A stretch of DNA of 64,000 nucleotides from a virus. Position numbers and translations under genes: made by a program. The stretch spans positions 89,851-153,850 of IMG/VR virus record IMGVR_UViG_3300027754_000045; one strand, 5' to 3'. Under the pieces are notes generated by a model. The model saw nothing but the letters and a program-made list of their open reading frames with translations. It searched no databases and was not told the DNA's origin. This document shows, piece after piece, positions 2,509 through 38,459 of the stretch; position 1 is the first letter of the stretch; every line of letters begins with the position of its first letter.

Positions 2509-5500
2509 TTTAATCTTGATTTTGCAAGAATACAAGTATTAGCAGATACTCGTATAAGTGATTTGTGGGTATTAGATACTACAAAAGCAAAACCTGTTGG
2601 TGTTGTTGCTGGGAAGTTTTATGCTCAAAGTGGCATTGATCGTTCTCAAGGAGGTTACACATCTGCTCCTAATGGAAGATTGACAAAATGGGCACAACCA
2701 TTATTTTATACTCCCAGATCTATGGCAGATGTTATTAAAGGAACAACTGCAATTTCTGGCTTATGTGCAAGCCTAACTTATAATAAATTTGGCATTTTAA
2801 AAAATTTAAATTATTTTTATGGTGGACAGACCTCTGGTAGTGAAGGATCGGTTAATATGTCACGCCTATTGAGACTCAAAGAAGGAATAACTGGAGGAAA
2901 AAATGTAATCAAAAGACCGTATTCTTTTAATGATATTAAAACTTTTGGTTTAAGTGCAGGTCATACACTTTTTGGTAATATTAATAGTGATAAAACAGTA
3001 ACTGCTGTAGCAATAGCATACAATAATCCAAACTCTTGGTCTCTAAAAAGAAATATGTTACTAAGTAGTTTAAGTCAAATTGATGAATGGCAATCTTATA
3101 GAGTTTTAAATTATTTAACACCTCTTGCTATTTCCTGGAGATTTCAAAAAGAAATCAGACAAAATAGTATAGGATTTTCAAATAATGTTTCACAAATATC
3201 TGAATCAGAACTTAACGCAGTAAATACAGATACTCTAAATCATCTTAAAATATTATTAGACGAATATAAAGACCATTATCCGCTAGCAAGACCGAATAAC
3301 GGAGTGAATAATACTCTAGGTAGTAACCAAACTTGGCGTGGAGAGGCAACTAGTGGCTATCCTATGGGTCTGTGTGGTTCTTTTGGTGTTCGAACATCTC
3401 CATATCCGTTAGGAGCAACTCTTGATTTTATTCCTGCACTAGGAGTAAACGGAACAACCTTAGATACTTGGTCTCCTCAAGGATGGACAGCAGATACAGG
3501 AATGTATTTATTTGACGGTTGGGGTATGAGATATATTTTAGAAAATATGATATATTTGGACGGAGTAACATCAGTAATAGAACCAGTTACAACAACAACT
3601 CAACTTAAAGCAGATTCTTCGTGGAATAATATTCTTATAGAAGTAAAAAAATTAATGCTTAAAGAAATTTTTGATTATGTGATACACACAGAAGAAGGAA
3701 GAGCCTGGTATGCTAAAAGAAAGTATTGGCCAGACGGTTCAGAGCGAGACTCACTGATTTATGCAGACTCAAACCCAAATCGAATATGGACAGAACAAGC
3801 AACTGGTTTAACAGGAATTAAGTATTATTATAATCATTATTTTAATGGAACTGGTTATTGGTATCCAGAACCAGATAATAAAGGATATGTAGGAACCAAT
3901 CAAAATATTACTCCTATGGCATATCGTATGTTAGCCACAATGTATTTGTATCCTTATATGACACTAGACAAAGAAAGAACTGCTCTTTTATCTGCGTATA
4001 ATATGATGGCAGAAGAATGTGCTTCGGTGTTAGAACGATTTTTAATGGGAGTTACTTCTTCTCAAGAAAATAGTGCTGGATATTGGACGGAAGGTTGGGG
4101 ATATGCTGCACAATCTATGCCAGATTTTTTGAAAATATTAACCTCTATGAAAACTATGGGAGACAGGAGACTATGGGACAAAAAGTCAACTCCAGACTAT
4201 TTCAATAAAACAATACCAGGAATTTCTTATAGTTCTTGGACAAACAATACTTGGAAATGGATCGTTAGTAGAATAATGCCAAATAATTTAATTATTAATT
4301 CTGGATCATGCAATAGTTCTGGATGGGAAACTATAGGCAACTCTTATCAATTTACACCGTGGGGAGTGTATTTAACTGCTGTGAATGCAAGCGAAAGTCC
4401 TACTCCAGGAACCACGGGATCTGCAATTAGCGAACTTCATGATTGGTTTGATAATAACGCAGGATACGAAGAAGAAATTGAATATTTTTACAATGTTAGA
4501 AAATATCAAGAACGTAATACATATAACGAAAAAATTAACACTCCTTGGTTTTACTCTCCAGGGGACTGTATAGTTACTTGGAAGTCGGAACACGTAATAC
4601 CAAAATTTCAAAGTGATTGGACTTACGGAAATAATACAGAAAGACCTGATGGTAAACCAGGATACGTTGTTAATAATTTTAATAAACCTTTAATTTTTGG
4701 TCTTTGGGCTAAGGGCGTAGGAGTTAGTGACGAAAAAACTAATGTTGATTGCGGTCACATTTCTGCTTATTTGGGCGACGCTGCATTACTAATAGAGACT
4801 GGTGAACCTAGACAGTTACTGGAATTTGATAATGATAAAACAAATAACTATTTTTACGAAAGAGAAACTTTCAGGGTAAAAGGACATAATGTTATGCAAT
4901 TGGGAGAAAGACTTGATTACAAGAATCCCAAATATGCTCCTTGGACTGGAGTAACATTTACCGCAACTGGTGGTAGTGCATTTTTAAATGCAACTTCAAA
5001 TTATAATGTTAGACCATTAAAAATAAGTACTCCTCAACCATTGGGTGATAATCGACCTAATCCAAAAGATGGAGGTTTTCCAACATGGGCAGAAAGTGAT
5101 CCTGCCTGGGATAATGTATCTGACGGATTTTTATATCTTGCAGGAACAACACAAATAGCGAATACACGAGGAGGAGATACTGCACAATATTTGGCTCAAT
5201 CCAGTAATATTCTTGGTGGATCAGAAACTATAGACGGAAGAGCTGGTCAATACGTATTTGAGCCGTATCAATACCAAATAAAAACCTGCACAAGAGGTAT
5301 TACCTGGGAATATTCTGCTGGTGTTGCAAAAATTAGAATTCAGGATATTGTGGGAATAAGTGCATTCAACAACAATCCATCGTTCTGGTCAGCAACTGGT
5401 CCGTATGCAACAGGACCAGACACAAGAGTATATTATCGTTTTCATACTGGATATACTGGAGCAAACGATATAGCAGGAAATCCAAGTTCAACTAGTTGGC

Positions 5501-7344
5501 CATTCTTTACCACCACAGACGCAGGATTAACTTTCTTTTCAGTTTCTGGCACAAACAACAAGACTTGGCAAGCAGCGTGGACACAACCAATACCGTATAA
5601 TACAATGGCATATGATGGTGTTGTGAGCAGATTAGATTCTGTTGGTGTCACAATGACCTTTGTTGGAAGTCAGCCAATTAAATTAACAAAAGAATTATCA
5701 GTAAATCATTCTTTTAAATATTCTTCAGTAACTAAACCAGGAATAGGAATTACTGCTCCTAGTCGCCATTACGCAATTAATATTTTGTTAGGACTATCTG
5801 GTGGAGCGTTTCACGACGAGAAAAACCTTACTCTTAATACCACTATTGATGCGGCAGTTAAAAAGAGAGATAACTTTACTATATTATTTCAAGAGGACGT
5901 TACAGTACAACAAGAAAATAAATTTAATGCACTAGGAGCAAAGAAATATTACATAAACTCTAGAGGACTTTCTGCAGGTAGTTGGAATTTATCCCAATCA
6001 AACATAGATGCAGCTGTTGCATATTTAAAAGGAGATCTTAATGAACAAGGAAGTATGGTATTTGGTAGAGGCATAACTGCAACCAGTAAATCTTTTATAT
6101 TTTTAGATTTTGAATCAACGTATGATCCTATGACTAAATCAGGAGGACCTACTGTAGATGTCATGTTAGTTGATGGTCATACAGGACCAAATGGTTTTAC
6201 AGGACCAGACGATCTTAGTTTTGATCAAACTTTACTAGATGGTCGAATATTTGGTCAAACCTGTGCAAATAAATATTTTTATGAATGGATTGAAGGTGGA
6301 ACGTCAAATAACGGCACAACATTCCACGGATTACGACATTATTTTCCAGGATGCAGTTTTGGTAATTACGGACCACATTGGTGGTGGGGAAATAGCCAAT
6401 GGTTTGGAAAAACTGATGCACAAATTGACGCACAACTAGAAATAGCCGCAAATACTCTTGTGGCTGGTTGTTCTGCTGCTTTTAAGGCATTTGATATATT
6501 TTCTCCTAGTGTTTATTCTAATGTTAATACCAGAAAATTAACCAGATGGAATAATGCACAAAATGTAAGATTGTATAAAAAAATTAATACAATAATGGGT
6601 ACCAATAAACCAATTATGCCTTGGGTTACTCCAACGTATTGGCATAATGGTACTGGTACTCCTTATACCACAGGCAACGCACCAGATGGTTATACAGGTT
6701 TCGAAGCTCAATATACTCCACCATGGACAATACTTCTAGATACTGACATTGTTTATGAAAATGCAGAACCTCTGATAGCCGAAGGAGCCGATGGAGTAAT
6801 GATTTGGGGTAGTCCAGAATATAGAAGCATTCAAATACTTGGTCGTCCTGGTTGTTCGGATTGTAGTGAATTTTCGTTAATTGGTTTCGAGGGACGTACT
6901 GCGCAAGCTGTTGACGGAAAATATCAACAATGGCCATTAGATAAAGCAACAACTCCAGGTGCAAGTCCTACTGGAATAACATTAAACGAATGGTCTTTCT
7001 TTACAGGTCAACGCCAAGCAATTTCTGCTCACGAGAACTATATAAAAGGCAGAGATATGGGTGTTACTGGTAATCGTTGGTGGTGGAAAGAAATTTCAGG
7101 TTCTACAGCGTATACACCACCAGAATGGGGAAATTTAAACACCAATCTTCAATGGAATGATGCAAATATTACTACTGGTACTACTGGTGCAGAAATAATT
7201 ACAAGAACCTATAGAGATACTTTTTATAATATGGCAAAAGTAATTAAAGAATCATACGGAACAAAAGATCAATGGATCTCTGGAATGACTGGACCAATTA
7301 AAGGTCTTACTGGTAACAGAAGAGTTAATGGAGTACAACAATAA
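1..7344 (+). CDS. Giant tail/adhesin protein: IPT/TIG repeats, heparinase II/III-like and glycosidase-like regions (5' truncated)
   Basis: The frame is open from base 1 to the TAA at 7342-7344, so at least 2447 residues are present and the start lies outside the window. Visible residues 1 to about 836 are roughly ten Ig-like IPT/TIG repeats of 84-86 residues, each with a GTNL..TSSVTVGGV core and a TPGG...FTY end. Residues of about 860-1800 are Trp/Tyr/Gly rich and contain EGWGY, a GHISAYLGDAALLIETG segment and KGHNV, which recall heparinase II/III polysaccharide lyases. Residues of about 1980-2447 contain FLDFEST and GADGVMIWGS, resembling a TIM-barrel glycosidase of the hyaluronidase type. 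The likely role is a virion receptor-binding protein that cleaves surface polysaccharide. The IPT assignment is firm; both enzyme assignments are inference. A TTG at 2563 is internal, not the start. Confidence 0.8.
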   Translation, partial: GTSFTITGTNLTGTSSVTVGGVAATSVAVVSGTSVTAVTPAGTAGVKSVVLTTPGGTATASSAFTYIGVPTITTINPSTGVLAGGTPFTIGGTNLLNTSSVTVGGVAATSVTIVSSTSVTAVTPVGTAGVKNIVLTTPGGTVTFSSAFEYTDIAVFPTITIIAPISGVLAGGTTFGITGTNLSDTSSVTIGGVTATSLTNVSSVFVTARTPAGATIGLKNIALTTPIGTAISANAFTYIGLPTITSIAPTSGVLAGGTTFGITGTNLSNTSSVTVGGVTATSLTNVSDTSVTARTPAGVTTGLKNITLITPGGTTTAPNAFTYIGLPTITEITPNSGPVSTETTVNIDGTNLSGTSSVTVGGVAATNLNIFSPFSVGCDFPVGTIGAKNVVLTTPGGITTALNAFTYIGVPTITSISPTSGVVAGGTTITITGTNLSDTTIVTIDGVEVTSFTNVSSTSVTVVTPAGATIGAKNIVLTNFGGTVTAPNVFTYIGLPTITSIAPASGVLAGGTTLGITGTNLSGTSSVTVGGVTATSLTNVSSVFVTARTPTGAIIGVKNIVLTTPGGITTALNAFTYIGVPTITTINPNTGILAGGTSFTIAGTNLSNTSSVTVGGVAATNVTTLSGTSVTAVTPAGSAGLKNIVLTNPGGTVTASNAFEYTDITIIPTITSISPTSGVLAGGTTLGITGTNLSNTTSVKVDGVTATSLTNVSSVFVTAVTPAGATIGLKNITLNTTLGGVTSVNAFTYIGLPTITSIAPISGVLTGGTTFGITGTNLSDTSSVTVGGVTATSLTNVSSVFVTAVTPAGATTGAKNIVLTTPGGITTALNAFTYTDFNLDFARIQVLADTRISDLWVLDTTKAKPVGVVAGKFYAQSGIDRSQGGYTSAPNGRLTKWAQPLFYTPRSMADVIKGTTAISGLCASLTYNKFGILKNLNYFYGGQTSGSEGSVNMSRLLRLKEGITGGKNVIKRPYSFNDIKTFGLSAGHTLFGNINSDKTVTAVAIAYNNPNSWSLKRNMLLSSLSQIDEWQSYRVLNYLTPLAISWRFQKEIRQNSIGFSNNVSQISESELNAVNTDTLNHLKILLDEYKDHYPLARPNNGVNNTLGSNQTWRGEATSGYPMGLCGSFGVRTSPYPLGATLDFIPALGVNGTTLDTWSPQGWTADTGMYLFDGWGMRYILENMIYLDGVTSVIEPVTTTTQLKADSSWNNILIEVKKLMLKEIFDYVIHTEEGRAWYAKRKYWPDGSERDSLIYADSNPNRIWTEQATGLTGIKYYYNHYFNGTGYWYPEPDNKGYVGTNQNITPMAYRMLATMYLYPYMTLDKERTALLSAYNMMAEECASVLERFLMGVTSSQENSAGYWTEGWGYAAQSMPDFLKILTSMKTMGDRRLWDKKSTPDYFNKTIPGISYSSWTNNTWKWIVSRIMPNNLIINSGSCNSSGWETIGNSYQFTPWGVYLTAVNASESPTPGTTGSAISELHDWFDNNAGYEEEIEYFYNVRKYQERNTYNEKINTPWFYSPGDCIVTWKSEHVIPKFQSDWTYGNNTERPDGKPGYVVNNFNKPLIFGLWAKGVGVSDEKTNVDCGHISAYLGDAALLIETGEPRQLLEFDNDKTNNYFYERETFRVKGHNVMQLGERLDYKNPKYAPWTGVTFTATGGSAFLNATSNYNVRPLKISTPQPLGDNRPNPKDGGFPTWAESDPAWDNVSDGFLYLAGTTQIANTRGGDTAQYLAQSSNILGGSETIDGRAGQYVFEPYQYQIKTCTRGITWEYSAGVAKIRIQDIVGISAFNNNPSFWSATGPYATGPDTRVYYRFHTGYTGANDIAGNPSSTSWPFFTTTDAGLTFFSVSGTNNKTWQAAWTQPIPYNTMAYDGVVSRLDSVGVTMTFVGSQPIKLTKELSVNHSFKYSSVTKPGIGITAPSRHYAINILLGLSGGAFHDEKNLTLNTTIDAAVKKRDNFTILFQEDVTVQQENKFNALGAKKYYINSRGLSAGSWNLSQSNIDAAVAYLKGDLNEQGSMVFGRGITATSKSFIFLDFESTYDPMTKSGGPTVDVMLVDGHTGPNGFTGPDDLSFDQTLLDGRIFGQTCANKYFYEWIEGGTSNNGTTFHGLRHYFPGCSFGNYGPHWWWGNSQWFGKTDAQIDAQLEIAANTLVAGCSAAFKAFDIFSPSVYSNVNTRKLTRWNNAQNVRLYKKINTIMGTNKPIMPWVTPTYWHNGTGTPYTTGNAPDGYTGFEAQYTPPWTILLDTDIVYENAEPLIAEGADGVMIWGSPEYRSIQILGRPGCSDCSEFSLIGFEGRTAQAVDGKYQQWPLDKATTPGASPTGITLNEWSFFTGQRQAISAHENYIKGRDMGVTGNRWWWKEISGSTAYTPPEWGNLNTNLQWNDANITTGTTGAEIITRTYRDTFYNMAKVIKESYGTKDQWISGMTGPIKGLTGNRRVNGVQQ

Positions 7345-21710: not shown

Positions 21711-23636
21711 ATGCATTTACCAACACAATTTCAACAATTCATTCACCTTTCTCGCTACAGCCGCTGGCTAGAAGAGGAGAATCGTCGTGAAACCTGGGAA
21801 GAAACTGTGAATCGTTATTTTCATTTCTTTGACGGTCATCTGAAAGAAAATACTAAATGCAAGTTGGATAAAGCAACAAGAGAAGAGTTGCGCCAAGCAA
21901 TTCTTAATCTAGAGATCATGCCTTCCATGCGTTCTCTGATGACGGCAGGAGAAGCACTAGAGCGAGACCATACAGCAGGATACAATTGCTCGTATGTGGC
22001 AGTTAATCGAGTAAGAGCATTTGATGAAATTTTATATATTTTAATGTGTGGCACAGGAGTTGGATTCTCCGTAGAAAGGCAATACGTTGACAAATTACCA
22101 ACAATTGCAGAGCAATTTACTGATTCGGACACTACAATTATTGTACAGGATTCAAAGGCTGGTTGGGCTAAGGCTTACAAGGAATTGGTCTCCTTACTTA
22201 TTGGAGGTCAAGTTCCAAAATGGGATGTCTCTAAAGTACGGGCTTCTGGGGCGAGGCTTAAAACTTTCGGAGGTAGAGCCAGTGGACCTCAACCATTGGT
22301 TGATCTCTTTAGGTTCACTGTGGATACTTTTAAACGTTCCGCTGGACGCAAACTCACAAGTATCGAATGCCATGATATTGTCTGTAAGGTTGCAGAGGTT
22401 GTGGTGGTGGGAGGAGTGCGTCGATCTGCTCTTATCAGTCTATCGAACCTCACCGATGAACGTATGCGTGATGCAAAAACTGGAGCATGGTGGGAAGCCA
22501 ATCCACAACGGGCACTTGCGAATAATAGCGTAGTGTATAGCGAACGACCAGAGATTGGTACGTTTATGGAGGAATGGGTCTCTCTTTATAAATCAAAGAG
22601 TGGTGAGCGTGGTATTTTCAATCGTGCTGCCGCACAAAAACAAACAGCAACATTAGGTGATCGTCGTGATGCCACCTATCAGTTTGGAACAAATCCATGC
22701 AGTGAAATTATTCTTCGTGACCGACAATTCTGTAATCTTACAGAGGTGGTTGTTCGTGCAGATGATACTGTTGAAACATTGACACGCAAGTGTCGTCTTG
22801 CCGCTATTCTTGGTACATGGCAAGCGTCCCTGACTCACTTCCCATACTTGTCTAGCGAATTTACAAAAAATTGTGAAGAAGAAGCCTTGTTGGGAGTGTC
22901 TCTTACAGGTATTCTAGATAATCATATTATGCGTGGCGAGTCTCAAGATGATATTGCTGAATTGCTCGGAGACCTTAAGAAGATGGCAATAACAACAAAT
23001 GTGGAATGGGCAAAGAAGTTAGGTATCAATGCAGCGGCTGCTATTACTTGTGTGAAACCGAGTGGAACAGTATCACAACTAGTTGACGCAGCCAGTGGTA
23101 TTCATGCTCGTCACAACGAATATTATGTTCGTACTGTTCGTGCAGATCGCAAAGATCCTCTGTGCCAGATGATGACCGACAAGGGATTTCCTGCAGAGCC
23201 TGATGTAACCAAGCCTGATCATGTTATGGTGTTTTCGTTTCCCATGAAAGCAGAAGGATCAGTGACACGCAATGATATGTCTGCTCTAGATCATCTAGAG
23301 TTGTGGTTGACGTATCAAAAGTATTGGTGTGAACACAAGCCGTCTATCACAGTAACAGTTCGTGAAGAAGAGTGGATGGAAGTTGGTGCCTGGGTGTACA
23401 AGCACTTTGATGAAGTTAGTGGTATTAGTTTCTTGCCACACAGCGACCATTCATATCGTCAGGCACCATACCAAGACTGCACCAAGGAAGAGTACGAAGC
23501 TCTATTGCTAAAGATTCCTGGGAACGTGGACTGGTCAGAACTCAAGAACTACGAAAAGGTAGATACAACTACGGGCACACAAACATTTGCGTGTACTGGC
23601 GATAAGTGTGAAGTGGTAGATTTAATTACCAGTTAA
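21711..23636 (+). CDS. nrdJ: Class II (B12-dependent) ribonucleotide reductase NrdJ
   Basis: 641 residues, similar to the monomeric Lactobacillus-type ribonucleoside triphosphate reductase but shorter (about 740 there). It shows NCSYV with C93, NPCSE with C330 and E332, FCN with C341, a GVRRSALIS segment, and a C-terminal redox pair C628-x4-C633. It needs adenosylcobalamin and makes deoxynucleotides without oxygen. AAAAGGAAA precedes the ATG, and a TATAAATT lies at 21688-21695. It ends tail to tail with the convergent minus-strand gene, stops overlapping by four bases. Confidence 0.95.
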   Translation: MHLPTQFQQFIHLSRYSRWLEEENRRETWEETVNRYFHFFDGHLKENTKCKLDKATREELRQAILNLEIMPSMRSLMTAGEALERDHTAGYNCSYVAVNRVRAFDEILYILMCGTGVGFSVERQYVDKLPTIAEQFTDSDTTIIVQDSKAGWAKAYKELVSLLIGGQVPKWDVSKVRASGARLKTFGGRASGPQPLVDLFRFTVDTFKRSAGRKLTSIECHDIVCKVAEVVVVGGVRRSALISLSNLTDERMRDAKTGAWWEANPQRALANNSVVYSERPEIGTFMEEWVSLYKSKSGERGIFNRAAAQKQTATLGDRRDATYQFGTNPCSEIILRDRQFCNLTEVVVRADDTVETLTRKCRLAAILGTWQASLTHFPYLSSEFTKNCEEEALLGVSLTGILDNHIMRGESQDDIAELLGDLKKMAITTNVEWAKKLGINAAAAITCVKPSGTVSQLVDAASGIHARHNEYYVRTVRADRKDPLCQMMTDKGFPAEPDVTKPDHVMVFSFPMKAEGSVTRNDMSALDHLELWLTYQKYWCEHKPSITVTVREEEWMEVGAWVYKHFDEVSGISFLPHSDHSYRQAPYQDCTKEEYEALLLKIPGNVDWSELKNYEKVDTTTGTQTFACTGDKCEVVDLITS

Positions 23637-25987
23637 AATCTACTAATATTCTTAAGAAGAGTTGATGTATTATTTACAGGGGTTTCTACGTCTCTTGCAG
23701 AATTCTTTGCCAAATAATCCATATGTTGTTGTAGTCTAGTCTTTGTTGCGTCATCTACATGAGGAAGAAGAGCACTAAATGTTTGTGGTTCGTGTAATTT
23801 GACTTGACTCAATGCATTCAATGCTGGATGTCTTGGTTTTTGTAAGTAAGAATCTTTAAATGGCACTTTTGCTTTTCCCCAATTTGGAGCTAATTGCTGT
23901 GCTACTAATTGTGGCCAAGAAGTAGTAGTTGAAACACCAGTTCCTCCTGTAGATACTGGTTCAACAGGCAAGTTTTCTGATTTAGGAGTAGCAACGTCAG
24001 GAGCATGTTGTGCAAAAAGATCACTATAAATATTGTGCAATGCAGCATGACTTTTTCTTTGTTTTGCTGCTTTTGTGTCTATCTTTAATTGAGAAAGGGA
24101 CATGTTACTAGGAGGATTTTCTGCAGAAATAGGCGCAATATCTCCAACAGGACTGACACGAGAAGATGCTGGATATAATTTTTCTAATACTCCGTACTTT
24201 CTAGTTGGTGATGCATCTTCTCTTTTTGCGTGACTCGCAATGCTAGGTAATTTAGTATCAATTGCAGTATCGTCATCAATATCGTCACCTGCGTGTGATT
24301 TAGGTTCTTCTATAGAACCATGTGCTCTATCAAGTTCTCTTTCAAGATTAATACCTATTTGTGATTGTCTTGAACCTGAAATCTTAGGAAGATTTGGAAC
24401 TTCCACAGTCATATCAACACCTTCGGCATCAAATGTTTCTTTTGCTGCTTGAGTTGTTGGCTGTGCTCTTCTTGACTTCATTGCTATTAATTTCTTTTTT
24501 ATTTCAGTAGCAGCAATTCTATCAGATAATGGAAGAGGTGCTCCTATTTTTACTGTTTTTACTTTTTTATTTGAAGTACTTGATACATCTTTATCAGCAC
24601 CATCTGAATAATCATCAGAGGAATCAAGAACTTCCTTAGTTTCTCCTGCCAACCACTGTCCAGCAGCCTTCATTCTGCCTTCTAATCCCTGTAGCATACT
24701 AGACGGAATCAAAGGTTGTTGTATCTTTGGTCCTGACGGCGCAGAAGTTGCAGTTGCCATTCTACCTAATGTAAATTCGTTTCGTGTTACTGGATCATTT
24801 GGAAATTGAAAACGATCTTCTCTTTTTAGAGGCTCTGATTCAACTTTTTCCTTTTTATCTTTTACTGGCATATTTTTTACTGGATACTTATTTGGTTCCA
24901 TGGCTTTAAAAGGAAGTAATATATTAAATCTTTCGGATGCTTCAGCAGCTTCTACTTCTTGTCGTGTAGCTCCTGCTCTAGGTCCTCCAGTTGCTGGGTT
25001 GTAAGCCCAGAATGCAGCAGAAGCTTCTTCTAATCTCTGCGCTAATACTTGGCGATAATGTTCAGTAATTTCTTGTTGTTCGTTAACAGGAGAAACTCTG
25101 TTTGGGTTTGTAAAATAATTATAAGGAGTCCATTTACGTTGACCTGGATCTGGTGGAGCTTCAAATTGCAAACTAGTATCTGGTGTATCAGATTGTGTGG
25201 TAGTTGATGTAATCGATTTATTAGCTGGCATTTGTTGATTCATGCCAACTCCTCTACTACCTAAAATACCTAGACCTAACATACCAGCACCAAGAACGGT
25301 AGCTATTGTTTTTGGACTAGTAAGAGTATTTCTTAATCCTTGACCAAATTTATAAGATGTTGACGGTGTAGTAACTGGAGTAGGAATGGAGGCAGGAGCC
25401 GAAGCAGGAGCCGAGGCAGGAACTAATTCAGTTTCTGCTTTAGAAACCATACCATCATTGTTCAAATCCCCATATTTTGTGGTAGCAGTAGAAATTGTTG
25501 AACCAACAGGTTGTTGTCTATTAACAATATCACTTGCAGTCTGAACAGAACTTAATCGTTTTGGATTTATTCTGAAACCAGGATTAATTATCTCACCTGG
25601 TTCTCCGAGAGCTGGATTTGAAATAGAAGAAATGCCAGACGAAACAGGAGTTTTTGATTTACCAAAAATTGCAGTTCCTTGCTTTTTAGTTATAGGATCA
25701 ACATTTACACTTTGGGTAATAGTTGTTTCTGGTTCGGGTTTTGGTTCAGGTTTGGCTTTAACTACAGGTTTACTTTTAGTAGTCTTAGGTTTACCTTTAG
25801 TTTTTGTTGCTACGACAGGAGCAGCCACAGGAGCAGCCACAGGAGCAGCCACAGGAGCAGGAGCACCACTAAACAAATCAGGTTCTCTAGGAGCCAACTT
25901 CTTAGCCTTGGCTTCTAGCAATAAATCGTTACTTTTGGTATAAATCGCTCTAATCAAATCAATTTCACTATTTACTGGTTTTTGCAT
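23633..25987 (-). CDS. Large low-complexity internal head protein candidate with EF-hand-like motif
   Basis: 784 residues. The N terminus is a helix ending DLLLE|A at residues 21-26, matching a T4-type prohead protease site (L-x-E|A). Then follow Ala/Pro and Lys/Pro repeats (APVAAP, KPEPKP), a GDLNNDGMVSKAE calcium-loop-like motif near 180, a glycine-rich hydrophobic stretch near 230-250 (TVLGAGMLGLGILGS) and long polar, disordered regions. These fit a protein packed inside the head and possibly injected with DNA. It has an AAGGAA ribosome-binding site and a late CCTAAATA upstream. Function unknown. Confidence 0.7.
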   Translation of the reverse strand: MQKPVNSEIDLIRAIYTKSNDLLLEAKAKKLAPREPDLFSGAPAPVAAPVAAPVAAPVVATKTKGKPKTTKSKPVVKAKPEPKPEPETTITQSVNVDPITKKQGTAIFGKSKTPVSSGISSISNPALGEPGEIINPGFRINPKRLSSVQTASDIVNRQQPVGSTISTATTKYGDLNNDGMVSKAETELVPASAPASAPASIPTPVTTPSTSYKFGQGLRNTLTSPKTIATVLGAGMLGLGILGSRGVGMNQQMPANKSITSTTTQSDTPDTSLQFEAPPDPGQRKWTPYNYFTNPNRVSPVNEQQEITEHYRQVLAQRLEEASAAFWAYNPATGGPRAGATRQEVEAAEASERFNILLPFKAMEPNKYPVKNMPVKDKKEKVESEPLKREDRFQFPNDPVTRNEFTLGRMATATSAPSGPKIQQPLIPSSMLQGLEGRMKAAGQWLAGETKEVLDSSDDYSDGADKDVSSTSNKKVKTVKIGAPLPLSDRIAATEIKKKLIAMKSRRAQPTTQAAKETFDAEGVDMTVEVPNLPKISGSRQSQIGINLERELDRAHGSIEEPKSHAGDDIDDDTAIDTKLPSIASHAKREDASPTRKYGVLEKLYPASSRVSPVGDIAPISAENPPSNMSLSQLKIDTKAAKQRKSHAALHNIYSDLFAQHAPDVATPKSENLPVEPVSTGGTGVSTTTSWPQLVAQQLAPNWGKAKVPFKDSYLQKPRHPALNALSQVKLHEPQTFSALLPHVDDATKTRLQQHMDYLAKNSARDVETPVNNTSTLLKNISRF

Positions 25988-26049: not shown

Positions 26050-26814
26050 ATGAAATACCTCAGGCTTGCTGCAATAAGTTTCGCAGTAGTCTTCGTGGTG
26101 CTCCTCTTGAGGCACAAAGAAGCAAAGCCTATACTACCTAAAATCAATCTTCCTGATCCAGCAACCATGATTGATGACATTCTAGAGATAGACAGTTATC
26201 CAGGTTTTACTGTGGTAACTGACGACTGTGCAGATACCTATAAATGTGTTGGAGAAATATTCACTGCTGATGGTCCGTTCATTGGTAGTGGAACATTGAT
26301 TGCTCCTAAAGTAGTGGTTACTGCGGCACACGTAATTAAAGGTTCCGATTTAGAATATTTCCGAACAAACAACAAGTGCTACAAGATTAAAAAATCTGTG
26401 GTACACCCAGATTATACAGAGGAAGGAAGTGGTAAAAATGATATCGGTTTACTTTTCTTAGAGGAAGCGTGTTTGGAAACTCCTGCAGTGTTACAGACAG
26501 ATCCCCAAGAACTAAAACGAGGAGAATTATTAACAACAGTTGGATTCTCTCATAAAATTAAAAAAATTAGTAATGAACACACCTTCTGGTATTACGGAAC
26601 CATTGTGGAGCAACCGACGTATATTCGTTTTCTTGCCTACAAAGGAAACATCTGGCTTGGTGATTCTGGAGGTGCCGTATTCGAGGACGGCGGTAAGCTG
26701 GCAGGAGTAATATCTGCGCTTATGATTATGGAGTATGATGTAGTGGATCAGATTGCTGCACGAGTAGACCTGTACGTTCCTTGGATCAGACAGATGGAGA
26801 AGATCAATGAGTAG
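26050..26814 (+). CDS. Trypsin-like serine protease, membrane-anchored or secreted
   Basis: 254 residues. Residues 1-20 form a hydrophobic signal or anchor. The chymotrypsin-fold triad is visible as TAAH with H94, NDIGLL with D131 and GDSGG with S206. It should cleave peptide bonds, probably in the periplasm or at the envelope. It is not the capsid maturation protease type. Substrate unknown: lysis, superinfection exclusion or virion processing are possible. Weak TATACT and TATACA elements precede the ATG, and no Shine-Dalgarno is evident. Confidence 0.88.
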   Translation: MKYLRLAAISFAVVFVVLLLRHKEAKPILPKINLPDPATMIDDILEIDSYPGFTVVTDDCADTYKCVGEIFTADGPFIGSGTLIAPKVVVTAAHVIKGSDLEYFRTNNKCYKIKKSVVHPDYTEEGSGKNDIGLLFLEEACLETPAVLQTDPQELKRGELLTTVGFSHKIKKISNEHTFWYYGTIVEQPTYIRFLAYKGNIWLGDSGGAVFEDGGKLAGVISALMIMEYDVVDQIAARVDLYVPWIRQMEKINE

Positions 26815-26896: not shown

Positions 26897-26931
26897 CCTA
26901 TGTGAATATCACAAAAAGCATAAATAAAAGT

Positions 26932-26961
26932 GGTCGAGTGAGGTTCGAAGCCTCCCCGACC
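26932..26961 (+). other. tRNA minihelix-like hairpin
   Basis: GGTCG pairs with CGACC, enclosing GAGG-TTCGAAG-CCTC, which is a T-arm with the universal TTCGA loop. This looks like an acceptor stem joined directly to a T-arm, without D- or anticodon arms. It sits just upstream of the homing endonuclease start and has no T-tract, so a terminator is unlikely. Confidence 0.4.
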
Positions 26962-26982
26962 TACACAGAAAGGTTAGTTTCC

Positions 26983-27675
26983 ATGCATTCTATTTATATT
27001 ATCTACCTTGTTCGACTTAACGGAAAACCTGTTTATGTTGGTTTTACTTCCAAAACATTAGAAGAGCGTTGGAATAAACATTGTACAGATGCAACAAAAT
27101 ATATGTCGCCATATGTTTTTCATAAAGCAATCCGCAAATATGGAATTGAATCCTTTTCAGTAGAAACTATTTATACAGGAGATGATTGGAAATATACTTT
27201 ACAAGTAATGGAGCCCCAGTTTATCACTGAATATAATACTTATATTCGTAATGAAGGTTATAACATGACTATGGGAGGAGAGGGAAGTGTTGGCTTCCGT
27301 CATAGCCTCGAAACTATAACGAAGATGTCAGAAGATAAGCAAGGAATGGGAAAGGGAAGAATCCACTCAGAAGAAACTAAAGAAAAGATACGGCAATCTC
27401 ATATGGGAAAGAAACGAAAGCCATTCTCCGAAGAGTGGCGACAAAATATGGGAAAAGCATCTAAGGGCAAGAAACGAAAGCCTTTTTCGGAAGAACATAA
27501 ACAAAAAATTTCACAGGCAAATAAGGGCAAGAAACGTGGACCTCCCTCTGAAGAAACACGCAAAAAATTATCAGAAGCAAATAAAGGTCAAAATAAAGGT
27601 ATTCCGTTATCTGCTGAAACCAAAGCAAAGATATCAGCCTCTCATCTTGCTCGTAAAGAAAGTAGGCTTGTATGA
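26983..27675 (+). CDS. GIY-YIG homing endonuclease with NUMOD3 repeats
   Basis: 231 residues from the ATG at 26983, preceded by AGAAAGG at good spacing. The N-terminal GIY-YIG nuclease core has IYIIY, VYVGFTS, RW..H and a Glu near residue 86. The C-terminal half has about five NUMOD3 DNA-binding repeats ([10 protein letters not shown]-type), as in T4 Seg and other free-standing homing enzymes. An in-frame GTG at 26902 would add 27 residues encoded by the hairpin region and is less likely. No intron is evident, so it is probably free-standing. It overlaps the resolvase gene by ATGA. Confidence 0.9.
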
Positions 27676-31966: not shown

Positions 31967-34900
31967 TTATATTGTTATTTCATTACCATCGATTATACAA
32001 TTTAATACTACATTATCTATAATACTTGGAATTTTTAGTGTTATGTCTATAAATAAGCTTCCTGTTTTTGTTTTCAAGGGAGTATTATTAGTTTCGTCAC
32101 AAACCACAGTATACGAAGAAATACCATTGTAAGATAAAATTATATTTAGTTCAGAAACAATGTTCAATTTCAATTTAGATCTAGTAATTTCGTTATTTAA
32201 TTCGAAAGCATAAGTTTTAAATATATTTTTTATAGTTTTTCTCAACAGGGTTAAAAAGTATACTTCGTTTATTTTATCGTAATTATCAAAAGAAAATAAG
32301 TGTGTAGCTAATTTATTTCCGTTTAAAAACACAACATCATTATTATTTTTTGTTTTGTTGTATACTGCACTTAAATAGTTTTCGTCGTCATTACTAGAAA
32401 ATTCATTAATAGGAGTAGGTAGAGTATTTAATAAAGACCCACGAGAAATACCTGAAAATGGTCTCCATCTATCCTTTGTTGTTGATAATCGAGCAATACA
32501 TCCTGCAGCATCGGTATTTGTTGATATATTTACTATAGTATTTGTCCAAGGACTAATAATTTGTTTTTTATCTGAAAAAAAACAAAGATTATTATCGTTT
32601 GTATAATAATTACTGCCTTCTGTGGTACTATAATCAGGTTTATTCACAAATCTATAGTCTTGATTATTTAGAAAATTTTTATAATAATCAAGTATTCTAA
32701 ATTTATCATTTTTGGTTGTGGCTATTATATAATGACTATGAGCATAAACTTTATCAAAAGATAAGTAATTTTCATTTTCTAGTTTTAAATAATTGTCTGT
32801 AGAATAAAGAACTTCTATATCACCCTTCATATTTACAGCGAAAGGTCCATCAAAATTCGTGCTTACGGAGGTATACGGACCAGGATAATGCAAATAATTA
32901 TCATTACCATTAGACATTAACCAAGATACTACACTTCCGTCTGTTTTAAGAGCAACATATCTGGTGTCTATTGCTGTACTAATTTCTGGATCGGTGCAAA
33001 TATGGTTATCTATAAGATTTACTGCACTCTCTAAATATACAACACTATTATTTGCAATTTGTGGAATATTTTTATTACTACTATTTCCCCAATGTACCAC
33101 ACTTCCGTCTGTTTTAAGAGCTAATATTTGATTCTGTATTACGATTTGAGAAGTACTATTAAGGGTAGTTAGAAGACCACAACAAGTTTGTGTTACGTCA
33201 CTAAGTGTTTGTCCTAAAATTTTTATAACACTACCATAAGTAGTACCACCAGAAAGTGTAATTCCGTTTCCGTTAGAATTTGTTCCTAAATATTGATTAT
33301 GAAATTCAGTTTCACCAACATTATTCACGTCTGTGTATGAATTTAAATCATTACTATTACCAATAGAGGATCTATAAACCGCACCAGACGGTATAACTAC
33401 AACATTTCTGTTTTTTAGAATTGCCACTATAAAGGTAAAATAGTTATAGTTGTCGGCAGCTCCGCCAGAGTTCTCACAGTTTAGTCGAACCATACTGTAA
33501 CTTGTTTTTGCATCAATAACATTTGTTAGTGTGGTTCCTAATGGCCACTGAATTGGTTCGTACCATTTTTGTTGTTGATTTATTACAATATCCGCCATAG
33601 TATTTGTATAATAAATTTTATTATCTGATATTGCAATAAATGAATGATCACTAGTGTAAACGTTAGTATAGGTTAATCCTCCACTATTCGTTTGATTATT
33701 ATATACATTAAAATCTAAAGTAGCTCCCCCAACATGTAAAAATTTATTTTGTAGACCTTTTTGAACTATAAAGTTGTTGGTTGAAGAACACAACCCCGCT
33801 AGTGATCCAAAAGCATCAATACGCCCATTATTATATAAAGAAATACCACCTTTATAATAAGACACATAATTCTCCCCAGGTAAACTATTCTTAACGCTTT
33901 TGTCTATAACTATTTTGTCTATAATATTACTGTGTAAATTTTTTATAGATTTTACTTTTTTATCTTTAAACACCATCATATAATCTTCATAAAATTTCCA
34001 ATCCTGCGTAATTCCTGTATTTTTTGAAGATGTTGTGTTGGAAAGGTTTATATAATCAATATCATTATTGTCTAAACCAGGTATGTTGTTTAATGGTGTT
34101 ATGCTGTTCGATAGACTATGTGCTGGTGTTTTTTGAAAAGAAGGATATGCTGTTTTATAGTTATTTACATAACTAGTCAAATAAGAACTTTGATAAGTAG
34201 CAGAACCTTGGGAATATATGGTTATTGGAAAATTTAAATTTTCGCCAATTCCCCATCCATAATATGTTCCTCCAGCACTAATAGCAAAATTTGAAAATCC
34301 AGATCGACCTAATTTGATTCCATCAAAATTATAACTTGTGGGACAAAATACCTGAATAATATCAGTAAGAGTAATGCCATTTATTCGAACAGGAACTAAA
34401 GGTGGAGGAATATTTGTGGTAGTATTATTGTTATTTCCTGCATTAGTTAGAGATATACCATAAGGAGTATCAAGTGCTGTTAAAGGATGGGATTGTGGAG
34501 TTCCTGTTCCGTATATTAAACCTATGGGCACAGAACTACAAACTCCTGAGATATTATACCCAGTTTGAGAATATGCTTTATTTCTATCTTCCTGGCCCCA
34601 ACACACCACATTTCCTCCAGCTGTTACAACACAAGTATGATGGTATCCTACTGCTACAGATTTAATTCCAGTTAAACCTGAAGGAGGAGTTGTTCGAAAT
34701 TTGGTTTCTGTATTAAAAGAGGATTCAAAAGCAGTATATCCGCCTGTAGAAGTTACTACCGCTATATGATTTGGTCCAATACTTATATTTCCTGCACTAA
34801 TTCCAGTTACCCCGCTCAAAACATTTTTAGAAAATCCCTTTTTTACTAGAGAAGGATTTATAATAAATCCTTTTGTGTCTGAATTATAGTAAATTTCTGT

Positions 34901-35530
34901 TTTATTATGTTTTGATCTGTCTAACCAGTCTGAAGACGTAGAATAATCTAAAAAAGGCACTAAATATGAAATTTCTGTTTCAGGAAGATATGCGTCTTTT
35001 TTGTCGCCTGCTAAATTTGCACTTGATTGTATGCTAGAACGTCCATTAGTGCCTATTGGTGTGGTTAATACTATGTCATCTGTTCTTGTGACATCAGTAA
35101 AATCTTTAAATTTTACTGATTTATTGTAAATATTTGTTGTGAATGATTTTAGATTTTTTTGAGTTCCTAAAAAACCTAAACAATCTTTTCTTGTTTTAGT
35201 TAACTCTATAGTATCCAAAAACATAGTATCACTTAAACCATCATTAAAAATAATATCTAAATCAACTAAATTATTGTTTCCGAGCGATCCAGTACTTCCA
35301 ACAACGCAAATACCTCCATATTGAAGGTAATTGTAGATACTCCACCACTCTCCAGCCCAAGCACCAGTAGGACCAGAGGTTTTATACGAACTATCGTTTA
35401 GTCTACCCAACCAACTATTATAAGAAGGAATCGTCATAAGACCTATTTCTTTTTCAGAAACAGTACCAAACAAATTCAATAAAGTAGGTGATGGTATTCC
35501 AGCAATAATTATGTCATCTATAGTTGGCAT
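31967..35530 (-). CDS. Tail sheath protein with RCC1-like beta-propeller insertion
   Basis: 1187 residues, far longer than T4 gp18 (659). Residues 1 to about 235 resemble a sheath N terminus (SYNSWLGRLND..., GAWAGEWWSIYNYLQYGGICVVG). The last 215 match the sheath C-terminal domain: RWRPFSGISRGSL, then NYDKINEVYFLTLLRKTIKNI, YAFELNNEITRSKL and YTVVCDETNNTP. Between about 240 and 960 lie RCC1/BLIP-II-like repeats (HTCVVTAGGNVVCWG, ILALKTDGSVVHWG, YVALKTDGSVVSW). The sheath part should form the contractile tube; the propeller would decorate its outside and may bind host surface. A conventional late promoter and AAAAGGAAC precede the ATG. Confidence 0.8.
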   Translation of the reverse strand: MPTIDDIIIAGIPSPTLLNLFGTVSEKEIGLMTIPSYNSWLGRLNDSSYKTSGPTGAWAGEWWSIYNYLQYGGICVVGSTGSLGNNNLVDLDIIFNDGLSDTMFLDTIELTKTRKDCLGFLGTQKNLKSFTTNIYNKSVKFKDFTDVTRTDDIVLTTPIGTNGRSSIQSSANLAGDKKDAYLPETEISYLVPFLDYSTSSDWLDRSKHNKTEIYYNSDTKGFIINPSLVKKGFSKNVLSGVTGISAGNISIGPNHIAVVTSTGGYTAFESSFNTETKFRTTPPSGLTGIKSVAVGYHHTCVVTAGGNVVCWGQEDRNKAYSQTGYNISGVCSSVPIGLIYGTGTPQSHPLTALDTPYGISLTNAGNNNNTTTNIPPPLVPVRINGITLTDIIQVFCPTSYNFDGIKLGRSGFSNFAISAGGTYYGWGIGENLNFPITIYSQGSATYQSSYLTSYVNNYKTAYPSFQKTPAHSLSNSITPLNNIPGLDNNDIDYINLSNTTSSKNTGITQDWKFYEDYMMVFKDKKVKSIKNLHSNIIDKIVIDKSVKNSLPGENYVSYYKGGISLYNNGRIDAFGSLAGLCSSTNNFIVQKGLQNKFLHVGGATLDFNVYNNQTNSGGLTYTNVYTSDHSFIAISDNKIYYTNTMADIVINQQQKWYEPIQWPLGTTLTNVIDAKTSYSMVRLNCENSGGAADNYNYFTFIVAILKNRNVVVIPSGAVYRSSIGNSNDLNSYTDVNNVGETEFHNQYLGTNSNGNGITLSGGTTYGSVIKILGQTLSDVTQTCCGLLTTLNSTSQIVIQNQILALKTDGSVVHWGNSSNKNIPQIANNSVVYLESAVNLIDNHICTDPEISTAIDTRYVALKTDGSVVSWLMSNGNDNYLHYPGPYTSVSTNFDGPFAVNMKGDIEVLYSTDNYLKLENENYLSFDKVYAHSHYIIATTKNDKFRILDYYKNFLNNQDYRFVNKPDYSTTEGSNYYTNDNNLCFFSDKKQIISPWTNTIVNISTNTDAAGCIARLSTTKDRWRPFSGISRGSLLNTLPTPINEFSSNDDENYLSAVYNKTKNNNDVVFLNGNKLATHLFSFDNYDKINEVYFLTLLRKTIKNIFKTYAFELNNEITRSKLKLNIVSELNIILSYNGISSYTVVCDETNNTPLKTKTGSLFIDITLKIPSIIDNVVLNCIIDGNEITI

Positions 35531-35550
35531 TAGTTTTTGTTCCTTTTACA

Positions 35551-35558
35551 TATTTATA
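35551..35558 (-). promoter_or_regulatory. T4-type late promoter octamer TATAAATA
   Basis: Perfect minus-strand TATAAATA 20 bases before the ATG of the sheath gene, followed by AAAAGGAACA. Confidence 0.65.
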
Positions 35559-35576
35559 AATAAAAATTATATGTTT

Positions 35577-36203
35577 TTATTTTGACTGTAATCCTAGTTG
35601 TATGGCAACAGAATTACGAATTTTTGTAATTTCATGAACAGCTAAAGTTTTATCCACAATCTCAGCTTTTACCGAACTACACCACTGAATCATTAAAAAA
35701 CCAGTTATTTCGTTTTGTATCCAAATAGGAATTACTGAAAATGCTTCAACATTCCTAGATTCTAAATATTGCTTAAAATAACTATCTTTAAGGTCCTGAG
35801 AATAGTGTAATTTTGCGTTATCTTCTACCACAAGATTTAATAGAGGAATAAACATTGAACACAAAAAACCACGTATTCTTGAGCCATCAGAAGCAATACC
35901 TTTTTCAAGAGATTCGTGGGTAAGACTAAATTTCCTCATTGATACACCATCCATAAAATATTCGCCATTATGGAGTTGTATGATTTGAGCACGAGCAGAA
36001 TCTGTTACTAATCTGAGTTCTGTGAGAAGTTCATGTATTTCACTGTGAACTATGAAAAAGTTGTCCATTTTCAGGTAACTCTTCAATTTAGACCAACTTT
36101 TCATGAAACCTATTATTACACCAATAAAAATTGCTGTATAAATTGCCCAATCCTCGAAAACTCTAACAAAATCTTGAGAAATATTAAAAATTCCATTAGG
36201 CAT
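35577..36203 (-). CDS. Membrane-anchored GAF-like domain protein
   Basis: 208 residues. One transmembrane helix lies at residues about 18-36 (WAIYTAIFIGVIIGFM). A cytosolic-like domain follows with LRLVTDSARAQIIQLHNGEYFMDGVSMRKFSLTHE and VIPIWIQNEITGFLMIQW, which resembles the GAF/PAS-like sensor fold of small phage proteins with an HNG motif. Ligand and role unknown; host signalling or membrane attachment during assembly are possibilities. It starts three bases after the stop of the HNH-bearing gene. Confidence 0.6.
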   Translation of the reverse strand: MPNGIFNISQDFVRVFEDWAIYTAIFIGVIIGFMKSWSKLKSYLKMDNFFIVHSEIHELLTELRLVTDSARAQIIQLHNGEYFMDGVSMRKFSLTHESLEKGIASDGSRIRGFLCSMFIPLLNLVVEDNAKLHYSQDLKDSYFKQYLESRNVEAFSVIPIWIQNEITGFLMIQWCSSVKAEIVDKTLAVHEITKIRNSVAIQLGLQSK

Positions 36204-36206
36204 ATT

Positions 36207-38459
36207 TTATTTCTTTTTCTTCTTTCGTATTTCCAAATATGTTTTACATCCTTCACACCTTTGTGATGGATTTTTTGAAAATGGCGTATCGTTACTCAAT
36301 CTATCGGTTAATTCTGGAGTTCCTTCGAAACCAGCACCATGATCTTCGTGCATAGCTCTATTTTTATGAGCAGACATAGGCTCTAGGTTGTTTGTGTTAT
36401 TATTTTGTGGGTTTCCGTCTTTATGATTCACATCTATGCCGTCACCCTTTTTAACTTTGCCTAATTTTATCATTTTTCTTCGAGCAAGAACTCGTTTGCT
36501 TCTATTTTTTCTTTGTTTTGCTGATCCCTGATAATTATCATATTCTCTGCGATAATTTCTCTCGTTGAGTTCAGAAATAGAAAATTGCTCGTTAAGAATT
36601 TTAACGGCATCAAAACTAGTCATACAACCACTATTAACTTGTTGTGCGAAATAATCATTACAAAATAAATATGATTCCATAAGAGCATCTGCTCCACGTT
36701 GTATTAAATCTTCCGAATTTCCTTCTGGATCAAAAATCATTTTGACTGGAATATTAATTATTTGTTCTGATGGTGTTCCAGAATTAATAGTAATAGTATT
36801 TTCTGTATCAGAGTCTCCTGAATAAAAATCAGAATACGATAAAGGCTTGACGAATACTGCGTCTATTAATTCTAGTTCGAATATTTCTAAAAAACTTAAA
36901 GGCATACTAATATAATCTTTAATTTTTTCAATATCCATTACTACATCCAATGAACTTTCGTTGATTTGTGACATTTTTTGAAATAATGATTGTAGAAACC
37001 CATTACTAGCATTTTCTTTTTTTGAAAATTTCAAATGCAAATCTGTATCTTTTGATTTTGAAAAATCATTAACAAACTCTGCATTTAATGGAATAATTTT
37101 AGCATCAGTTCCGTCTTTATTTGCAGTCAACATAGCTTGAGCAGATCCTGGATTTCCTTCAAACTTTCCGTTTCCAGTTAAAAGTTCTTGTAAAAACATA
37201 GACTTTATGTTTATATTTTCGTTAATGTATTGTTCAAATAAATTAGCAGATGTATTTAAAAGTTGTTGCTGGCGATTACTAATAAAATCATTTTTCATTC
37301 TTTGTTTGTTTAACAACAAAGATCCTTGTTGAATTGTTGTGGATTGAGTTGGTTCTATAAAATTTTTAGAAAAATCAGAACGAAGATTTTCTACAAAATC
37401 TTTAATCATTAAACTAAAAGATTCAAACATTTCTCTAGGATCTATTAGAGACAGAGAAGTTGTTAGTGCAAACCCAGCTTCTCCTTTTATTCCTGGTCTC
37501 ATTTGTTCACCAATTTTAACAGAAATTCCTAAAGAATCTTCTTTTGACACACCAATAAGATTAATATTTCCTACAGATTCTGGAATATTCATACTATTCC
37601 ATAATTTACCAGTAGGATATGATGGTTCTGCTAAACTAAATTTCATATTAGCAGCTTCTGGGAATGTTTTAGAAATTTCCTTTACTATTCTTTCTATACA
37701 ACTACCTAAAGTTCTATTAGAATCAATTTCTTGTTGAAATTCGGTTGGTAGTTTCTTACCAGATAAATTATTCAAGGCATCAGGTAATAAAGAATTTATT
37801 TGATTGTAATCATGATCCCAATCAGGATATGTAGAAAATTCATCAGTAATTTCTTTTCCATTCTTTGGGGCACGAATATTTGGCGGAGGTGGCACAGATG
37901 CAGAAGATTCACTAGAAGATTTATCAGAAGATTTATCAGAAGATTTATCAGAAGAATCATCTTTTTTATTTTTTTCTATTTTGCCTAATATTTTTATAGA
38001 AGTTTTAGTATTAACAAAATTTTCCATACCAGAGTAATACGTTAGATCTCTTTTAGTAATATCGCCCTTGTCTACTTTTCCTATACGCCCTTTGATTACA
38101 GTATGAAGAGATTTATCAAAATCAGATTTTAAAATAATTTCTACTTTGTTGCTGTTATTGTTTTTTACAACAATAATTTGACTCATAATGTCTGTTTGTT
38201 TGTCTTGGCGACGACTTTCTTTTTTACGATTTCTTTCACGCTTAGCAGGATCAACTTCTGGTCTCATTCGTTGTTTTTCTGCTTTTAACGGAGTTCGTTT
38301 AGACTCTGCAGTTTCGTGTAAAGCCTTGAAGAAAGCTTCTTGTAATTTGTCTTGCGATTTAGTTGTTTTTGATTTATCGGGGAAAAGAATAGAAGATTCA
38401 GTTAAAAATTTAGAATATTCTTTAAAATTAAACCAAGATGGAAGATTATTTTTTAGCAC
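36207..38459 (-). CDS. Virion protein candidate with capsid-targeting N terminus and C-terminal HNH motif
   Basis: 750 residues from a GTG. FKEYSKFLTE|S at 12-22 fits a capsid-targeting and prohead protease site. A Ser/Asp/Lys-rich stretch with SSDKSSDKS repeats lies near 165-190; the middle is acidic and helical. Residues of about 635-720 contain YRREYDNYQGS followed by basic residues and D-V-N-H-K-D-G-N-P-Q-N-N, an HNH-type His-Me finger, then a CEGC pair near the end. A packaged nuclease or structural DNA-binding protein is inferred. A late CCTAAATA ends five bases before the GTG, so the message may be leaderless. Confidence 0.75.
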   Translation of the reverse strand: MLKNNLPSWFNFKEYSKFLTESSILFPDKSKTTKSQDKLQEAFFKALHETAESKRTPLKAEKQRMRPEVDPAKRERNRKKESRRQDKQTDIMSQIIVVKNNNSNKVEIILKSDFDKSLHTVIKGRIGKVDKGDITKRDLTYYSGMENFVNTKTSIKILGKIEKNKKDDSSDKSSDKSSDKSSSESSASVPPPPNIRAPKNGKEITDEFSTYPDWDHDYNQINSLLPDALNNLSGKKLPTEFQQEIDSNRTLGSCIERIVKEISKTFPEAANMKFSLAEPSYPTGKLWNSMNIPESVGNINLIGVSKEDSLGISVKIGEQMRPGIKGEAGFALTTSLSLIDPREMFESFSLMIKDFVENLRSDFSKNFIEPTQSTTIQQGSLLLNKQRMKNDFISNRQQQLLNTSANLFEQYINENINIKSMFLQELLTGNGKFEGNPGSAQAMLTANKDGTDAKIIPLNAEFVNDFSKSKDTDLHLKFSKKENASNGFLQSLFQKMSQINESSLDVVMDIEKIKDYISMPLSFLEIFELELIDAVFVKPLSYSDFYSGDSDTENTITINSGTPSEQIINIPVKMIFDPEGNSEDLIQRGADALMESYLFCNDYFAQQVNSGCMTSFDAVKILNEQFSISELNERNYRREYDNYQGSAKQRKNRSKRVLARRKMIKLGKVKKGDGIDVNHKDGNPQNNNTNNLEPMSAHKNRAMHEDHGAGFEGTPELTDRLSNDTPFSKNPSQRCEGCKTYLEIRKKKKK

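Follow-up and report, generated by a model that had tools for sequence, protein, structure and literature searches.

The ORF at positions 31967-35530 raised the question of whether the contractile tail sheath of this phage is built from a protein split by a large RCC1-like domain, or whether the protein has another place in or beside the tail. The ORF lies in a window of 64,000 nucleotides, which corresponds to bases 89851-153850 of the record IMGVR_UViG_3300027754_000045 (153,850 bases). The features of the locus and of the related loci are listed in Table 1.

At the C-terminal end of the 1187-aa protein, Phage_sheath_1C (PF17482) matched residues 1083-1174 (3.6e-7; 30.6 bits, above the curated cut-off of 26.9), PHROG 23 'tail sheath' matched residues 977-1181 (4e-16), and T4 gp18 in the PDB matched residues 972-1165 (7e-16). 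At the N-terminal end, residues 8-125 showed 65% identity to the phage's own main sheath. The two sheath halves were aligned separately, as controlled fragments, to 18 conventional sheaths; this fragment set was used because a one-step MAFFT alignment misplaced the C-terminal halves. Residues 1-126 and 977-1187 cover residues 1-150 and 170-379 of the main sheath, and both terminal arms of the sheath core are retained in the alignment. Near-invariant sheath columns are kept in both parts (43 of 56 in the N part, 25 of 43 in the C part). Judged by these matches, both ends of the protein are those of a T4-type tail sheath. The codon-position composition was uniform, with a GC3 of 0.16-0.20 in all parts of the ORF, and the recent arrival of an RCC1 gene from elsewhere was dropped as an explanation. 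The first-pass annotation had described a single protein with sheath sequence at both ends and RCC1-like repeats between them, and this combination was confirmed by the Pfam, PHROG 23, PDB and RCC1_2 matches; when the ends and the middle were checked separately, the C end matched sheath families and the middle matched RCC1_2. Its assignment of the last ~215 residues to the sheath also held, with the boundary now at residues 977-1187. Its assignment of the first ~235 residues was right for the N terminus but too long, since the sheath part ends at ~126.

Table 1. Coordinates of the sheath paralogue, its parts and neighbours (window positions), and of related loci (contig positions).
Feature	Position	Strand	Basis or remark
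Sheath paralogue gene with RCC1-like insert	31967..35530	-	1187 aa; profile and PDB matches
N-terminal sheath part, residues 1-126	35153..35530	-	Alignment to own main sheath
Start of insert, residues 127-238	34817..35152	-	No recognised family
RCC1-like repeat region, residues 239-965 (probable beta-propeller)	32636..34816	-	RCC1_2 and blade model
Best RCC1_2 repeat, residues 289-314	34589..34666	-	Pfam
Further RCC1-like blade, residues 800-819, NQILALKTDGSVVHWGNSSN	33074..33133	-	Blade model
C-terminal sheath part, residues 977-1187	31970..32602	-	Pfam, PHROG, PDB matches
TATAAATA, T4-type late-promoter motif (core)	35551..35558	-	28 nt upstream of paralogue ATG
AAAAGGA, probable ribosome-binding site	35541..35547	-	Read from sequence
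Upstream neighbour, weak GAF-like	35577..36203	-	Followed directly by next neighbour in L137
Downstream neighbour, 295 aa	31070..31957	-	401 aa in L137, 5' end longer there
Conventional main sheath, 379 aa	G000:C1:53471-54610		Between terminase and tube/portal
Baseplate wedge gp53 fused to RCC1 repeats, 619 aa	G000:C1:27388-29247 (L020:7388-9247)		
gp53-RCC1 fusion, 1349 aa, of another related phage (G007, L141)	L141:5209-9255		
Three tandem sheath genes, 1460, 377 and 470 aa, then two tube genes	L023:516-13153 (and L024)		

The middle of the protein was matched by RCC1_2 (6e-11; 42.2 bits, above the curated cut-off of 22). WD40_RLD gave 35 bits, below its cut-off of 150, and PF00415 had no match anywhere in the phage genome. 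A blade model was trained solely on other RCC1 proteins of the phage group, with 20 shuffles as the control. Residues 239-264, 283-316, 610-647 and 800-819 outscored the best of the 20 shuffles, while pairwise phmmer searches (E up to 1) gave no match between the middle and the other RCC1 proteins compared. Full-length AlphaFold modelling with 21 aligned rows gave a pLDDT of 28, and the C-terminal 100 residues were modelled well. On these scores the RCC1-like repeats in the middle exceed chance, with only a few of the possible blades clear. The repeat region is a probable beta-propeller. The earlier proposal of a ~720-residue RCC1/BLIP-II-like propeller is supported as to the RCC1 repeats, which lie above the cut-off; the insert as a whole has ~850 residues.

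Residues 127-976 (~850) of the paralogue replace a 19-residue crossover, residues 151-169 of the phage's own main sheath. In the main-sheath model, the insert site falls where the chain crosses over from strand 142-146 to strand 175-179, and by profile alignment it corresponds to about residues 412-445 of T4 gp18, inside domain III. In T4 gp18, domain III comprises residues 24-87 and 346-510, and domains I/II comprise residues 88-345 (PMC3004832). The 379-aa main sheath has no counterpart of the outer domains I and II (88-345). Alignment and model together show ~850 residues with RCC1-like repeats where domain III otherwise has a short crossover from one strand to the next. The first-pass annotation had expected an insertion at an outer loop; the site found is not the usual outer-domain site (T4 domains I/II) but a second place, in domain III (T4 ~412-445).

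The same genome encodes a second, conventional sheath of 379 aa. The gene order around it is terminase-sheath-tube-portal, as in T4, and its AlphaFold model (pLDDT 90.5) has fold matches to T4 gp18 and to the sheaths of Afp/PVC. Other annotated T4-type tail parts in the genome include tubes, wedges, gp53, a tube cap and a gp26-type protein. The gene of the 1187-aa protein is not in the terminase-sheath-tube-portal cluster, where its place is occupied by the 379-aa sheath. Because a complete sheath is found in the normal gene order, the 1187-aa protein is a paralogue and not the main sheath. The first-pass annotation had taken it for the phage's sheath and had named a second, conventional sheath gene whose product is the one in virions as evidence to the contrary. 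The genomic half of this holds, with such a gene at G000:C1:53471-54610. A dense array of binding domains along the tail, which the annotation had foreseen, is therefore no longer the default expectation.

The two paralogues have diverged unevenly. Their C-terminal domains are 36% identical in amino acids and 50% in nucleotides, whereas over residues 26-82 their DNA agrees at 90% of positions (81% of third positions), a closeness equal to that between the main sheath and the sheath of the relative L005. Codons were shared at 82% of identical residues in the N part vs 51% in the C part (p = 0.0002). In the tree, the C domain of the paralogue falls in the same sheath clade as the main sheath (support 80/90), on a very long branch of 2.5. 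Judged by this placement, the two sheath paralogues of this genome arose by duplication, and the simplest reading of the uneven divergence would be that the duplicate is old and that a patch at its 5' end was renewed recently by recombination or gene conversion. The diverged C domain, with its signature kept and the frame open, indicates long selection at the protein level.

The motif TATAAATA upstream of the paralogue occurs 27 times in the genome, and 12 of these 27 occurrences lie 9-65 nt upstream of ORF starts. This fraction is the highest among 56 anagrams, for which the mean was 7%. The motif is also present upstream of the main sheath gene, the portal gene and the gene of a large fibre-like protein. 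As it stands upstream of the paralogue and is enriched near ORF starts, the paralogue is likely expressed late, with other virion proteins.

The genes flanking the paralogue are colinear with L137 and L140. In the near relative L137, in which the neighbouring gene is 93% identical, the paralogue is absent from the same site and its neighbours adjoin; L140 likewise has no paralogue. The gap between the two neighbours in L137 is 8 nt only, so the late-promoter motif seems to be part of the inserted piece. Since both L137 and L140 have no such gene, the paralogue is accessory and, going by its empty site, dispensable at least in L137. A 750-aa protein with a C-terminal HNH domain (window 36207-38459, - strand) adjoins the neighbour of the sheath paralogue, and at the corresponding place L140 encodes a 526-aa protein ending in similar HNH-like sequence. 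Elsewhere in the window are a trypsin-like serine protease that has a hydrophobic segment at its N terminus (26050-26814, + strand; Pfam Trypsin 4e-13), a GIY-YIG homing endonuclease with NUMOD3 motifs (26902-27675, + strand), a large ORF of 1593 aa without a Pfam match (2563-7344, + strand) and another, of 784 aa, matched by neither Pfam nor PHROG (23633-25987, - strand). From the closest relatives and from RCC1-bearing cyanophages of lakes and reservoirs, we infer a freshwater origin of the phage. No psbA was found in this genome, so that gene gives no sign of a cyanobacterial host.

The queries against the viral_contigs collection were the full-length protein, its C-terminal part and its middle taken separately, and aligned conventional sheaths. 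Where they gave hits, these were conventional sheaths or sheath paralogues that lack RCC1, and no second RCC1-sheath was found. A search of genome_contigs with the alignment of conventional sheaths found nothing. Most of the 50 related records searched had one sheath of 380-450 aa; many of these records are fragments found via the terminase, from which the paralogue lies far away, so absence from them is weak evidence. The exceptions were G002 and G003 (contigs L023 and L024), with three sheath genes in tandem. Their 1460-aa sheath was considered as a second example and rejected, since its extra part is N-terminal and has no RCC1 match. Upstream of the tandem sheaths in L023 is a gp15 sheath stabiliser with ~1130 extra C-terminal residues. 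In another contig (L060:5923-7065), two adjacent tail tube paralogues follow a single sheath gene.

RCC1 repeats were not confined to the sheath paralogue. RCC1_2 matched four ORFs of the genome, namely the sheath paralogue and ORFs of 619, 803 and 2214 aa. The first 94 residues of the 619-aa protein are the baseplate wedge gp53, and the 803-aa and 2214-aa ORFs encode two very large fibre-like proteins. A gp53-RCC1 fusion was also identified in a second related phage, in which the gene of another RCC1 protein follows it (L141). In the annotated freshwater cyanophage S-SRM01 (L143), RCC1 genes adjoin tail-fibre and baseplate-wedge genes. RCC1/BNR genes beside tail-fibre genes were seen in the freshwater cyanophages S-SRM01 and BUCT-ZZ01 (L144). 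RCC1/BLIP-II proteins are numerous in jumbo phages (PMC5259590, PMC7247149), and one of them, GAP_001 of phage GAP32, was detected in virions by mass spectrometry (PMC5259590). Its occurrence on gp53, on fibre-like proteins and in phage virions indicates that the module goes with tails, and from these fusions the RCC1 module is seen to be a mobile decoration of tail proteins. Its presence on gp53 and two fibre-like proteins points to a shared role in adhesion or decoration at the tail surface.

We give about an even chance to the reading that the paralogue is a minority sheath subunit displaying its RCC1-like domain outwards, beside the main sheath. The gene is an accessory copy, by duplication, of this phage's contractile sheath gene, and its product would be made late, with the other virion proteins. 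With its conserved N-terminal arm, both core halves and the C-terminal strand, it would probably slot into the sheath lattice and sit beside the 379-aa sheath, either as one special ring at the tail end or scattered. The insert would be too big for the space between sheath and tube and would have to face out; this direction is drawn from the size of the insert and from the rule that the extra domains of multidomain sheaths lie away from the tube (PMC9230969). The outward domain would most likely bind cell-surface material, weakly or as a secondary contact, and so help the phage to stick before the fibres engage. Against this reading, the near relative L137 has no such gene, no homologue of the same architecture was found in viral_contigs, and the C domain is so changed (branch 2.5) that lattice contacts may be lost. 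More tentatively, RCC1-like propellers may form a mobile display module carried by three or more types of tail protein (gp53, the large proteins that resemble fibres, and the duplicated sheath), with the duplicated sheath as a dedicated carrier that dots the sheath and leaves the essential gene untouched; we regard this as possible but somewhat doubtful. A spare sheath with a large RCC1-like domain would join two ideas, the duplication of a lattice protein and the decoration of the copy. If a mixed sheath forms, it would be a natural model for the display of large domains on a contractile tube.

The decorated subunit could instead be abundant along the whole sheath, mixed with the main one or replacing it, to give a propeller-coated tail. 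The N-terminal patch is nearly identical to the main sheath, as if fitting the same lattice, and the upstream late-promoter motif and the description of the PaBG sheath as two-component (PMC7412058) also point this way. We nevertheless consider it unlikely, because a complete main sheath is present, the C domain is strongly diverged (18 of 43 near-invariant columns lost), and a domain of >700 residues per subunit would crowd the ring, above all after contraction; a T4-type sheath ring is ~40 A thick (PMC3004832). The gene is remote from the tail cluster, beside genes of unknown function, and the branch of its C domain is long. Both facts would suit a role outside the tail, in which the sheath parts merely carry or anchor the RCC1-like domain, and the protein acts, for example, as an unattached assembly factor or on a host partner inside the cell. 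Such a role has a small but real chance. Selection has kept the sheath core in its two halves and at its two ends, the late-promoter motif precedes the gene, and the other RCC1 domains of the phage sit on tail proteins, all of which argue against it.

A selfish or decaying duplicate, that is, a functionless sheath copy that took in a domain, would be consistent with the empty site in L137 and with the lack of another copy of the architecture in viral_contigs. It is quite improbable, however, for an ORF with no stop in 1187 codons (~97 expected from composition), with its own promoter motif and ribosome-binding site, and with an old, diverged C domain in which signature residues are kept. That an assembly artefact joined sheath and RCC1 sequences of different phages is scarcely credible: the architecture comes from a single metagenomic record, but codon-position composition is uniform in all parts, the flanking genes are colinear with two relatives, and the middle copies none of the other RCC1 genes compared, which a chimera with a co-assembled gene might do. 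The minority subunit remains the reading we prefer.

Two-component, multi-paralogue and multidomain sheaths are already known. The RCC1-like insert in a sheath appears to be new; no description of one was found in the open-access literature, in agreement with the first-pass annotation, which knew of no example. Uptake of Ig-like domains by sheaths is known, and a few phages have two sheath proteins. For the Pseudomonas jumbo phage PaBG, the structural-proteome table lists both members of a pair of paralogous sheath proteins; PaBG and its kin, like the phage studied here, carry two sheath paralogues by duplication in one myovirus, and the divergence is of the same order (38% identity in PaBG, 36% in the C domain here). 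The PaBG sheaths are of equal size (~58 kDa) without a large insert, whereas the paralogue described here has 1187 aa (PMC7412058). In Afp2/3/4 and Pvc2/3/4, likewise, one contractile tube uses several sheath paralogues that differ in their peripheral domains, but these have no RCC1-like insert and are encoded by neighbouring genes in an injection-system operon (PMC8894135, PMC8894136). L023 and L024 represent T4-like relatives with sheath paralogues, one with ~1100 extra residues; unlike here, these residues extend the N terminus and give no RCC1 match, and the sheath genes are adjacent. In type 3 multidomain sheaths, as in the paralogue, an N- and C-terminal core is interrupted by extra domains, for which a role in adhesion or stability has been proposed. 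Ig-like or helical folds prevail among these domains, a propeller is not mentioned, and they sit on the main sheath, whereas here an RCC1-like domain sits on a paralogue, in another loop than T4's domains I/II (PMC9230969).

Rak2-like jumbo phages (GAP32, phAPEC6, 121Q) resemble this phage in the many RCC1-like proteins encoded per genome, some of which were found in virions, and the sheath of phAPEC6 bears hair-like fibres at three annular positions (PMC5259590, PMC7247149). The RCC1-like proteins of these phages are separate and have been read as possible DNA-organising proteins (PMC5259590, PMC7247149). Here, in contrast, the repeats are built into tail proteins; such proteins of large phages were guessed to condense DNA, and their place on tail proteins in this phage favours a role at the surface.
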